NCBI GenBank assembly: GCA_037042915.1
Contig: CM073201.1
Location: 620,001 to 684,000, forward strand
Reading direction: 5' to 3'
From: Auricularia sp. M13
Lineage: Eukaryota > Basidiomycota > Agaricomycetes > Auriculariales > Auriculariaceae
Length of the DNA: 64,000 nucleotides
In this document: positions 59,891 through 62,922 of the stretch, piece after piece
How positions within the stretch are numbered: position 1 is the first letter of the stretch
Layout: every line of letters starts with the position of its first letter
Notes under the pieces: generated by a model
Seen by the model: only the letters and a program-made list of their open reading frames with translations
Database searches by the model: none
Told to the model about the DNA's origin: nothing
Program-made: the position numbers and the translations under genes

Positions 59891-60211
59891 TACAGCGCTT
59901 GCACTAAGTAATGGCAGTAGACGCTTTTTTTCCGGAATGTGTTTTTTTTTCTGCGATCACCGTGGGCCATACGGGGGCAGACTAGTGCCGAGCGACCGGT
60001 TCTCCGTCAGCCAGCATGGCGGAGGGCGTCTTCCGAGGAGTCGCGAGGCTGATCGGCACACGCCAGAACACGCTAAGCGACTCCTCGGTGACCCCTTATT
60101 GTGCTCTCGGGCAGGCTTAGCAAACCCCTCGCCTGCCCTGTATGATCGCAGAAAAAAAAAATCGATCCGGAAAAAAAACAGCTACTGCCATTACTTAGTG
60201 CAAACGCTGTA
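59891..60211. mobile_element. 317-bp MITE with TA flanks (Tc1/mariner-like)
   Basis: The element spans 59893-60209. The left end reads CAGCGCTTGCACTAAGTAAT and the right end on the minus strand CAGCGTTTGCACTAAGTAAT. Both continue through GGCAGTAG and T-rich CCGGA to CTGCGATCA, about 70 bp of inverted repeat. A TA dinucleotide abuts each end (59891-59892, 60210-60211). A second, internal inverted pair CCGAGGAGTCGC / GCGACTCCTCGG suggests extended folding. No coding capacity. Confidence 0.82.
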
Positions 60212-60949
60212 AGGAACGACCGCTCTGCGTGCGAAAATCAACAATCGCCGCAGACACCGCTGGAACAACTGCGCGGACGTTCATCGGGCTATCTCAAGCT
60301 TCTTTTATCTGGTATATTGGTCCCAACTATCTATACTACTAGACTTGGGTCCCAAGTCCCAGATTTCTCTGAGACCCGTTCTCAACTCCAGCACCAAGTC
60401 CCAAAGTTGGGACCCATGTCGGAAATTTTCAGATTAGTTTGCAATGATATATTCGCCAGCAACTAATTGTAAGTGCACCGCTACTGATTGCGAGCTCGTT
60501 GTGAGCGCCCTCCTTCTCGGTCCATGCGCTAGGTGTGTGGGGTGTACCTCGGCACCTTCGCCCTGCCTCGGACCGTGCTCGACTGGAGGGGTGGTGGGAC
60601 GTCGGCGTCATGGGGGACGGTGTTGGCTGGGCCCTTAGCTCCGGGATCACCCTGGACCGGATCATCGGCCCTTGGGGATGGGTATATAGGTTGTGGGATG
60701 TAGATGCGTGTACCCTAGGTTTGGTCTGGTCAGTTGTACCGCTTGTCCGTTCTTCCTCGTCCCTCTCTCCTCTCTTGGGCGTCGGTCTCGGCGAGTGACG
60801 AGCGCTCTGCCGTGACACAAAGCGCATGGACAACCAGATGTCCGGGCATGCTGATATTTTCCTCAAAATTGGGAAATAGCCTAAAATACTCATCTATGGT
60901 GTCTTTGAAGCTTACAATTGACTCCCTGAGTGGGCTAGTCAGGACCCCT
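60212..60949. other. Start of the repeat-rich, gene-poor right end
   Basis: The segment from 60317 to 60420 is dense in GGTCCCAA / TTGGGACC words, as is 62660-62785. A part (60711-60820) is an inverted homologue of 63334-63550, sharing TACCCTAGGTT and GAGTGAC-x-AGC-x-CTCTGCC. No gene was recognised. Confidence 0.5.
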
Positions 60950-60956
60950 AGAAAAC

Positions 60957-61225
60957 CGTGCGCAGGGTCCGTGCGCATCCGTGCGCAAGAATATCCGTGC
61001 GCAGAACTTCCGTGCGCAGGGTTAGAACTTTCGTGCGCATGAGTTTAACTTTCGTGCGCAGGGTCCAAATGTCCGTGCGCACTTTTCAAAATCCGTGCGC
61101 AGGGTCCTGGTCATCCGTGCGCATGAAATGTGCTTTCGTGCGCAATTTTCACAATCCGTGCGCAGGCTCCTGATATCCGTGTGCAGTTTTCACAATCCGT
61201 GCGCAAAGTACAAAATCCGTGCGCA
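60957..61225 (+). repeat. Phased CGTGCGCA array 1 (15 copies)
   Basis: Copies start at 60957, 60970, 60980, 60996, 61011, 61032, 61053, 61074, 61094, 61116, 61137, 61157, 61178 (one-base variant), 61198 and 61218. Spacing is 10-16 bp at the outer left end and then 20-22 bp. Most copies are preceded by AT-C or TT. The intervening bases differ. Confidence 0.95.
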
Positions 61226-61903
61226 GTGTGAAAAACATCAAAAATCTTTTGAAGACGTATATCATAGATGTATTTATGGCACTGTGTGCATTGATAGAGG
61301 TGCACATCTCTAGTGTTGACTATTTTAGATAAACTACTGTGCTACATAATTTGTTCGAAATTTCACTTCCACGTTAGTACAGGATCAGAAGTATTCAGCC
61401 AGCATGTCGGTTTGTGTTCTAAGCTGATTTCCTGAAGAGGCTCTAAGTAGGTACTCATAACTCAAAAGATGTTACCCTCATGCAGTTATGTTATGTTAGG
61501 TTAGATTAAGCTTGCTAAGATTAGAACTTATATTATTTTGGTTCATGAATTCAGGAGTAATATCCTTTGCAGCCTGAGTAACCATGATTCACTCATCTAC
61601 TAATAGATTCTAAGCCCTGATCCCAGTTTGGTCAAAAAATCTCAAATGAATTGTCTGGGTCAAGGAGAGACGAGACACGTGTTTTGGGCCATGGAGTGGA
61701 CCTGGAACAAGCCAAAGTTTGCTATGTCTGCTCCACCACCTCTGTACCACAGAGGTGCTCACTCTCCTGCATCACACCACCATCCCGTCCCTTCAGATCT
61801 TTTTGTTGATTAGATGGGTTCCAACCTCATCCTCACCATGCCATCTCACAGAGGGACTTGCACGCCCACACCATATTATACTCAAGTTGCCAGGATGTAT
61901 TTT

Positions 61904-61972
61904 CTGTAGGTTGGACTAGTGGTTAAAATGTACATGTTCTTAATGGATTCGAAACACCCTCAGTTCAAATCC
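61904..61972 (+). other. tRNA-derived SINE-like head
   Basis: GGACTAGTGGTTAAAATG (A-box-like) and CAGTTCAAATCC (B-box-like) are spaced as in a tRNA gene, in an otherwise non-coding AT-rich stretch. Stems are degenerate. A related copy is on the minus strand at 62845-62922. Confidence 0.5.
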
Positions 61973-62172
61973 AGTCATAGACATCCATTTTGTGGCACTC
62001 TACCTGTGTTTACTACATTCTGTAGTGTATTAACAAACTGTACTTGAGCAGTCAATTGCAACAAGACTTATGGAAATTGTTGGTGTTTGTTAATGAACTT
62101 CAATGAGTTCAATCAAGTCGCCTAAATGTGCCAAAGTGAAAAAAATAATGCAGTTGTGCTTTATACAGAATC

Positions 62173-62418
62173 CGTGCGCAACACACAAAATCCGTGCGCA
62201 GTGTAAGCATGTCCGTGCGCATGTCTACCATGTCCGTGCGCATGTTTCTAACATCCGTGCGCAGGGTCCAAAATGTCGTGCGCACAAAATCACAATCCGT
62301 GCGCAGTCCTCCTTCATCCGTGCGCACAGATTTACAATCCGTGCGCATGATTTCAACTTTCGTGCGCAGTGTGAAAAATCCGTGCGCAGTCCGTGCGCAT
62401 CCGTGCGCAACGTGCGCA
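62173..62418 (+). repeat. Phased CGTGCGCA array 2 (14 copies)
   Basis: Copies start at 62173, 62193, 62214, 62235, 62256, 62277, 62298, 62319, 62340, 62361, 62381, 62392, 62402 and 62411. Spacing is 20-21 bp over ten intervals, then 9-11 bp at the outer right end, the mirror of array 1. Reverse-orientation copies follow at 62585 and 62606. Confidence 0.95.
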
Positions 62419-62639
62419 ACATGCGCGCGGAACTTGAAACCAGTAATTTGACAATATCGTGGCCAGTTTTTAAGGTTTGATAGGTTTGTGCACACAGACA
62501 TGTGCGGGTAGGTGTAAGCTACTGGAATGACCTTCAACAATCATTCTAGGATGTCTGAACAGTCTTCTAGGGCAGGATTACTGCTGCGCACGGACCTCGC
62601 GCACGTGCGCACGGTTTTCTCGTGACCACATATGTAAGC

Positions 62640-62790
62640 CTCCCTTCCTCTGGTATACTGGTCCCAAGTCCTCCAGTACTGAGAGTTGGGACCCGAATCC
62701 CAGCTTTCATTGGGACATAGGTCCCAACTTCTACTAGAGGTCCCAAGTTCCAGAGTCCCAGATTCAGTAGTCCCAACTTTCAGGGGGCTC
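62640..62790. repeat. GGTCCCAA / TTGGGACC-rich repeat, related to 60305-60420
   Basis: TCTGGTATACTGGTCCCAA here parallels TCTGGTATATTGGTCCCAA at about 60309, in the same orientation. Both are followed by several GGTCCC and TTGGGACC words at roughly 20-base intervals. Confidence 0.65.
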
Positions 62791-62844
62791 ACATGCGACT
62801 TAGGAGTGGATTCATCTCAATGCGCAAGTCAAAATGAATTTTGA

Positions 62845-62922
62845 CCTGCATGAGATTTGAACCCTCAACCAGCCGCCAGTGCCAAACCCATCCATGCTTT
62901 AACCACTAGACCAGAGAGGAGA
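62845..62922 (-). other. tRNA-derived SINE-like head, minus strand
   Basis: On the minus strand, TCTGGTCTAGTGGTTAAAGC resembles a tRNA D arm and A box, and GAGGGTTCAAATCTC a T arm and B box. The acceptor stem is not convincing, so this is more likely the head of a SINE than a working tRNA. Confidence 0.5.

Follow-up and report, generated by a model that had tools for sequence, protein, structure and literature searches.

A non-autonomous, probably Mutator-like transposon family of Auricularia sp. M13 with co-oriented arrays of a short motif at both ends

An element of 1,687 bp found in the stretch of Auricularia sp. M13 DNA analysed here (64,000 nucleotides, C9:620001-684000, referred to as the window) belongs to subfamily A of a family of non-autonomous DNA transposons, of which there are approximately fifty copies. 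Near each end it carries an array of an 8-bp motif, CGTGCGCA, and the two arrays have the same orientation. The family is probably moved in trans, by cut-and-paste, by the transposase of a Mutator-like element (MULE), with the arrays as putative binding sites. Filing it with the MULEs is well favoured by its ends and target site duplications (TSDs), and the likely function of the arrays is to bind the transposase or an accessory protein. The features of the window copy are:

60933-60941, + strand: left copy of the target site, GGCTAGTCA; a paralogous empty site (L073) has GGCTAGTCATAACG, the last 4 bases of which, with the downstream flank, resume at C9:695315
60942-62628, + strand: whole non-autonomous element of subfamily A, with ends and length matching other copies
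60942-60949, + strand: left tip, GGACCCCT
60950-60964, + strand: left arm of a perfect 15-bp inverted repeat, AGAAAACCGTGCGCA
60957-61225, + strand: left array, 14 exact copies of CGTGCGCA and one with a single mismatch, spaced 20-22 bp across the inner 10 intervals
61226-62172, no strand: interior, with no Pfam match above cut-off in six frames; absent from subfamilies B and C
62173-62418, + strand: right array, 14 exact copies of CGTGCGCA oriented as in the left array, with outer intervals of 11, 10 and 9 bp
62419-62605, no strand: subterminal spacer from the right array to the right inverted repeat, with a reverse motif at 62585 and a forward motif starting at 62604
62606-62620, - strand: right arm of the 15-bp inverted repeat
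62621-62628, + strand: right tip, CGTGACC(A), abutted at ~62627 by the terminus of a neighbouring repeat family (CACATATG...)

The left tip and the right tip (CGTGACCC), of 8 bp each, are asymmetric, the left not being an inverted copy of the right, and both were assigned to the element by comparing the flanks of its copies. With the tips included, the ends read GGACCCCTAGAAAA (left) and GGGTCACGAGAAAA (right); the last base of the window element is A and that of most other copies is C. Hence the 15-bp inverted repeat, which the first-pass annotation took as the frame of the arrays, is indeed perfect but is not the terminus, as it sits just inside the tips and 8 bp more on each side belong to the element. 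The left array begins within the left inverted repeat, and 187 bp lie between the right array and the right inverted repeat. Zero matches were obtained in an Rfam search of the window.

Random spacing of the motif was not seen when the genome (52.1 Mb in 14 contigs) was searched: pairs of CGTGCGCA with a gap of 8-16 bp number 670 (398 + 272), against 0 for the reversed pattern used as a control. The arrays are bounded by the same termini elsewhere, with 10/10 clusters at a canonical end and 8/10 between both ends among the matches listed. Allowing up to 3 mismatches, there are 50 left and 51 right ends genome-wide (the search gave 51 matches per end, and one 'left' match, at C6:255588, is actually a right end). 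Target duplications, for which alignment of the loci had been proposed, are present: when ends were paired in fetched copies, a subset of all copies, 41 pairings resulted, and 30 of these have a perfect TSD, 28 times of 9 bp and twice of 10 bp. The 11 pairings lacking a perfect TSD are one cross-pairing on C7, the window copy, L060 and eight more. In L060 (C7:2297469-2300292), a right and a left end are in opposite orientation and the flanks are reverse-complementary (ACGTCAGTG), which suggests an inversion or an alternative-end transposition event. Outside the 41 pairings, a 49-bp remnant (C9:780935-780983) consists of the two ends only, with a 9-bp TSD; its surroundings resemble retrotransposon coding sequence by eye. 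A search with relaxed tips and a different array start returned this remnant and two known A copies, and nothing more.

The window copy has no TSD on its right side. The paralogous empty site, which is on C11, reads GGGCTAGTCATAACGCC; its left part corresponds to the left flank in the window (99.2 % over 124 bp) and its right part to C9:695315 onward, where the original target resumes (97.5 % over 319 bp), with an overlap of GTCA between the two. Since this site matches both flanks, the window copy was inserted at GGCTAGTCA, and the missing TSD is accounted for by a later insertion of approximately 12.7 kb of other DNA at the right end, in which a few bases were lost. That stretch begins with the repeat family abutting the element, and its far end is part of a repeat lying beside pieces of KDZ (Kyakuja-Dileera-Zisupton) transposase. 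Regular spacing, taken alone, would suit a satellite, centromeric or other chromosomal nucleoprotein locus; the dispersed copies, common termini, TSDs and empty-site paralogue refute such a non-mobile locus, which we consider exceedingly improbable. The transposon explanation put forward in the first-pass annotation is thus upheld, and its alternative, an undescribed nucleoprotein array independent of transposition, becomes needless.

Several further observations concern the surrounding DNA. The terminus of the abutting repeat family (CACATATGTAAGCC..., window 62627-62830 onward) has clusters of GGTCCCAA/TTGGGACC, and a 202-bp query from it gave 11 further full-length matches and one short match. 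A similar TTGGGACC cluster is at 60319-60414 (7 in the window, 1.4 expected). Downstream of the element, L079 and L080 (C9:about 686.8k-695314) contain the KDZ transposase pieces and a CxC1 match below cut-off, and C2 has four close copies of the repeat that ends at C9:695314, a partial copy of which lies inverted at C9:686882-687041. Segments 61905-61980 (+) and 62845-62915 (-) of the window look by eye like tRNA promoter boxes and are possible SINE pieces; ARAGORN calls no tRNA. An inverted repeat at 59900-60202 has 60-bp arms that are 88 % complementary and 183 bp apart, and the region 14060-47916 includes six ORFs with F-box-like matches (two below cut-off), two adjacent G-alpha pieces and one CDH-cytochrome/b561 ORF.

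On both strands of the window there are 39 exact copies of CGTGCGCA, 5.8 being expected, and 0/100 shuffles reached 39. The element includes 29 exact copies on the + strand, as the first-pass annotation had counted, but not all are in the two arrays: the 29th (62604) is at the right terminal repeat, outside both, and a single-mismatch copy, CGTGTGCA, at 61178 has to be added. The array lengths of 269 bp (15 sites including the mismatch) and 246 bp (14 sites) were reproduced, as was their separation of 0.95 kb (947 bp). From left to right, the intervals are 13, 10, 16, 15, 21, 21, 21, 20, 22, 21, 20, 21, 20 and 20 bp in the left array and 20, eight of 21, 20, 11, 10 and 9 bp in the right array; hence either array has 10 successive intervals of 20-22 bp, where at least nine had been claimed. 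Both arrays do tighten towards their outer ends, but the mirror symmetry attributed to this is not strict. At a period of 10.5 bp, the phase coherence of the arrays is 0.72 and 0.90 in A and 0.75 and 0.78 in B. The two-turn spacing is real and unusually neat. Under uniform 12-30 bp intervals, the chance of ten consecutive intervals of 20-22 bp is approximately 1e-8, a figure that rules out chance only, because duplication also yields regular spacing. The palindromic TGCGCA core noted earlier is present; the best-conserved unit is, however, the asymmetric TCCGTGCGCA (T in 26/29 at -2, C in 23/29 at -1), and therefore the core is not the whole signal. The C at +8 required by a longer palindrome is found in 3/29. 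That a protein binds repeatedly on one face of the DNA, as the first-pass annotation proposed, is something we infer from the register.

The bases between the motifs had been described as not conserved. They do differ, but mean linker identity by lag is 0.34-0.51 versus 0.30 for shuffled letters, and the periods reported by TRF in the arrays include 20-21, 41-42 and 63 bp; the linkers are unconserved yet retain a residual duplication history. The regular spacing could, on this pattern, stem from tandem duplications of 21 bp and of 42/63 bp. Subfamilies A (1.69 kb), B (1.86 kb) and C (2.0-2.4 kb; L010 and L051) have common ends and arrays and unrelated interiors. The A alignment comprises 19 fetched copies free of large insertions, with 10 interrupted or truncated copies left out, and the B alignment comprises 8 copies. 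The outer left spacing of 13, 10, 16 and 15 bp does not differ between A, B and the diverged L011 copy, and for the most part the register of ~21 bp persists, with gains and losses of whole units among copies L040, L041, L017 and L016. Global alignment of the array regions of A and B gave an identity of 0.83-0.88 for motif positions versus 0.54-0.55 for non-motif positions.

Substitutions among the copies bear on whether the motif has been maintained. Positions 2, 3, 6 and 7 of the forward motif changed in 0/2115 cells in A (30 forward sites), while at the four CpG positions of the motif there are 62 transitions and 3 transversions among 2113 cells. When L011 is excluded (18 of the 19 A copies), there are 1/2187 non-CpG motif changes versus 69/7992 linker changes (Fisher p 1.3e-6, which treats the cells as independent although the copies are related). 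Because the non-CpG motif sites of A hardly vary while the CpGs decay by transition, this suggests that the motif letters may have been under selection in mobile lineages, with CpG methylation following insertion. CpG observed/expected is 0.35 in the element outside the motif versus 1.12 in window 1-60900, and decay of the motif CpGs is below that of all other element CpGs pooled in both subfamilies (p about 0.02 each). Other comparisons count against the constraint and decay reading. Subfamily B (7 of 8 copies, L049 dropped) has 9/731 non-CpG motif changes versus 27/2656 in linkers, which is no contrast; L011 has diverged about equally at motif and non-motif positions (identity 0.955 vs 0.94 on the left, 0.883 vs 0.913 on the right); and in A the CpG decay of motifs (71/2221) and of linkers (6/210) is alike. 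The transitions at the A motif CpGs comprise 41 C>T and 21 G>A, a strand bias.

Two accounts of the arrays that leave the transposon itself as it is were weighed against these data. If the arrays were minisatellites grown by slippage, with no role, their spacing would simply be the length of a duplication. The TRF periods, the residual linker similarity, the whole-unit gains and losses in the four copies named above and the lack of a motif-linker contrast in B speak for this; however, the non-CpG bases of the A motif hardly vary where linkers do, 8 bp are kept while linkers of 12-14 bp differ, and the irregular outer spacing is identical in A, B and L011. We regard it as quite improbable. Alternatively, the arrays might serve a host protein, such as a transcription or silencing factor, and not the transposase or its partner. 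Many CpG sites near both ends, together with their decay by transition, suggest host methylation there, and no transposase is known to pair with the arrays. Against this, the three subfamilies, which have little in common besides their ends, all retain the arrays, as expected of end recognition; MULE and Foldback elements are known to bear end repeat arrays (PMC3169594, PMC5225508); and in Galileo, a P-type element with repeat-rich ends, the THAP domain of the transposase has been demonstrated to bind sites in those ends (PMC3688188). This second account is rather unlikely.

An autonomous copy, which the first-pass annotation expected might be found among loci with common ends, was not found. 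No transposase domain was detected in six frames in the interiors of A, B (L050) or C (L010), where the Pfam matches Herpes_UL4 and MC6 were weak, under cut-offs, and disregarded. Nor was a transposase detected beside five of the unpaired ends, L014, L019, L070, L071 and L072; L014 and L070 have copia-type domains. Six long copies considered as autonomous candidates proved on mapping to be nested insertions or broken or ordinary copies. Those on C1, C4 and C6 (330 kb) map as A or B elements of the usual kind into which other DNA has been inserted, B copies are present at the C7 place, one of them interrupted, the C5 copy is broken and C-like, and C6:1499341-1512331 has the halves of one B copy at either end.

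Seven loci with a MULE domain are present in the genome, none of them linked to family ends. Among five ORFs scanned from these, PF10551 was above cut-off in three, below it in one and without a match in one, with FAR1 in two (one below cut-off) and SWIM in two. No tips or array were found within ~1.5 kb on each side of the seven loci (~3 kb for one), no family ends within 50 kb in the genome-wide end search, and, by the criteria applied, no inverted ends with a duplication at these loci. One MULE locus, L066, was examined as an array bearer and rejected, as its 4 exact motifs are hundreds of bases apart and GTGCGC occurs 8 times against 6.3 expected. A one-mismatch inner repeat lacking family tips lies 11 kb from the C7 MULE locus. 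As neither tips nor arrays were found in these stretches around the seven loci, a trans-acting MULE is possible but would be unlinked, and because no linked transposase was found we only infer the filing. The TSDs of 9 and 10 bp are within the 8-10 bp of MULEs, and inverted repeats are present, though at a perfect 15 bp inside the tips they are short for a superfamily in which they typically exceed 100 bp (PMC5225508, PMC3169594).

Merlin elements have TSDs of 8-9 bp, and the IS1595-type transposase of that superfamily (PF12762) has 0 matches in the genome. Short subterminal repeats near both ends, as in the window family, are found in CACTA elements (the TnpA sites) and in hAT elements (Ac, Kat1), the two superfamilies suggested in the first-pass annotation. 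This suggestion does not hold, as EnSpm/CACTA elements have 3-bp TSDs and CAC-type tips and hAT elements have TSDs of 5-8 bp (PMC12730594), versus 9 bp and GGACC / GGGTC tips here. Other fungal lengths given in the same source are 8 bp for Zisupton and Dileera, 7 bp for Kyakuja, which is without inverted repeats, 6 bp for IS3EU and 2-3 bp for Plavaka; 9 bp fits none of these lengths. KDZ transposases are very abundant, with 154 matches, and none (PF18758) was inside the long copies among the matches listed. This abundance and the lack of a linked MULE gene favour a mover from another superfamily (Merlin, KDZ, hAT, CACTA or an undescribed one), but given the TSD length, which is within the MULE range, and the absence of PF12762 we consider one unlikely.

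Under the favoured MULE reading, the arrays of TCCGTGCGCA would be subterminal sites at which the transposase or an accessory protein sits on one face of the helix every two turns and, near the right outer end, every turn. The bound protein would load both ends for synapsis, with cleavage and joining at the 15-bp inverted repeat and tips, and after insertion the two CpGs of the motif would be methylated and decay, disabling the ends. A more speculative extension, to which we give limited credence, is that in an element without long inverted repeats the co-oriented arrays support a protein polymerising on one helical face, with methylation acting via the two CpGs per site as an all-or-none switch.

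Elements with repeats in their ends have been described among MULEs, namely Tm1 and Muta1, which have 9-bp (8-9 bp) TSDs, ends containing tandem repeats, and swarms of non-autonomous copies (PMC3169594, PMC5225508). From its published description, Tm1, a Mutator/Foldback family of Meloidogyne, appears strikingly similar in plan to the window family, with a 9-bp TSD, short asymmetric tips external to the inverted repeat, ends bearing many short tandem repeats and mostly non-autonomous members with few or no autonomous copies (PMC3169594). However, the Tm1 repeats are tandem units of 13-15 bp that form most of inverted TIRs, and Tm1-A encodes a MULE/Phantom transposase (PMC3169594), whereas in the window family motifs of 8-10 bp recur every 20-22 bp, directly oriented at either end, no transposase was found, and co-oriented arrays of a small motif with unconserved 12-14 bp linkers keep a two-turn register. 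Muta1 and other MULEs of Aedes likewise have 8-9 bp TSDs, subterminal tandem repeats and non-autonomous swarms with varied interiors (PMC5225508). In Muta1, a 145-bp TIR includes a 12-bp repeat present 9 times and separated by linkers of 3-4 bp (PMC5225508), whereas the window family has non-inverted arrays and an inverted repeat of 15 bp. Galileo, of the P superfamily, has several THAP-domain binding sites in repeat-rich ends, proposed to provide specificity; unlike the window family, it has inverted repeats of up to 1.2 kb, three sites were found and the superfamily is different (PMC3688188). In 2013 the same source called the role of end repeats as binding sites untested for Foldback and Phantom elements. 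A comparable fungal family was not found in the open-access literature, and a literature search with the 8-mer gave only unrelated work among the matches listed.

Repeat arrays at Mutator/Foldback ends are already known; the window family differs from Tm1 in that its arrays are co-oriented, consist of a small motif with unconserved linkers and keep a two-turn register. The family provides clean natural variants, namely in-register gains and losses of units, a copy that lacks the four outermost sites on the left, a copy of 546 bp, the 49-bp remnant and sites decayed at CpG, and short DNA suffices for direct tests of binding, phasing and methylation sensitivity.
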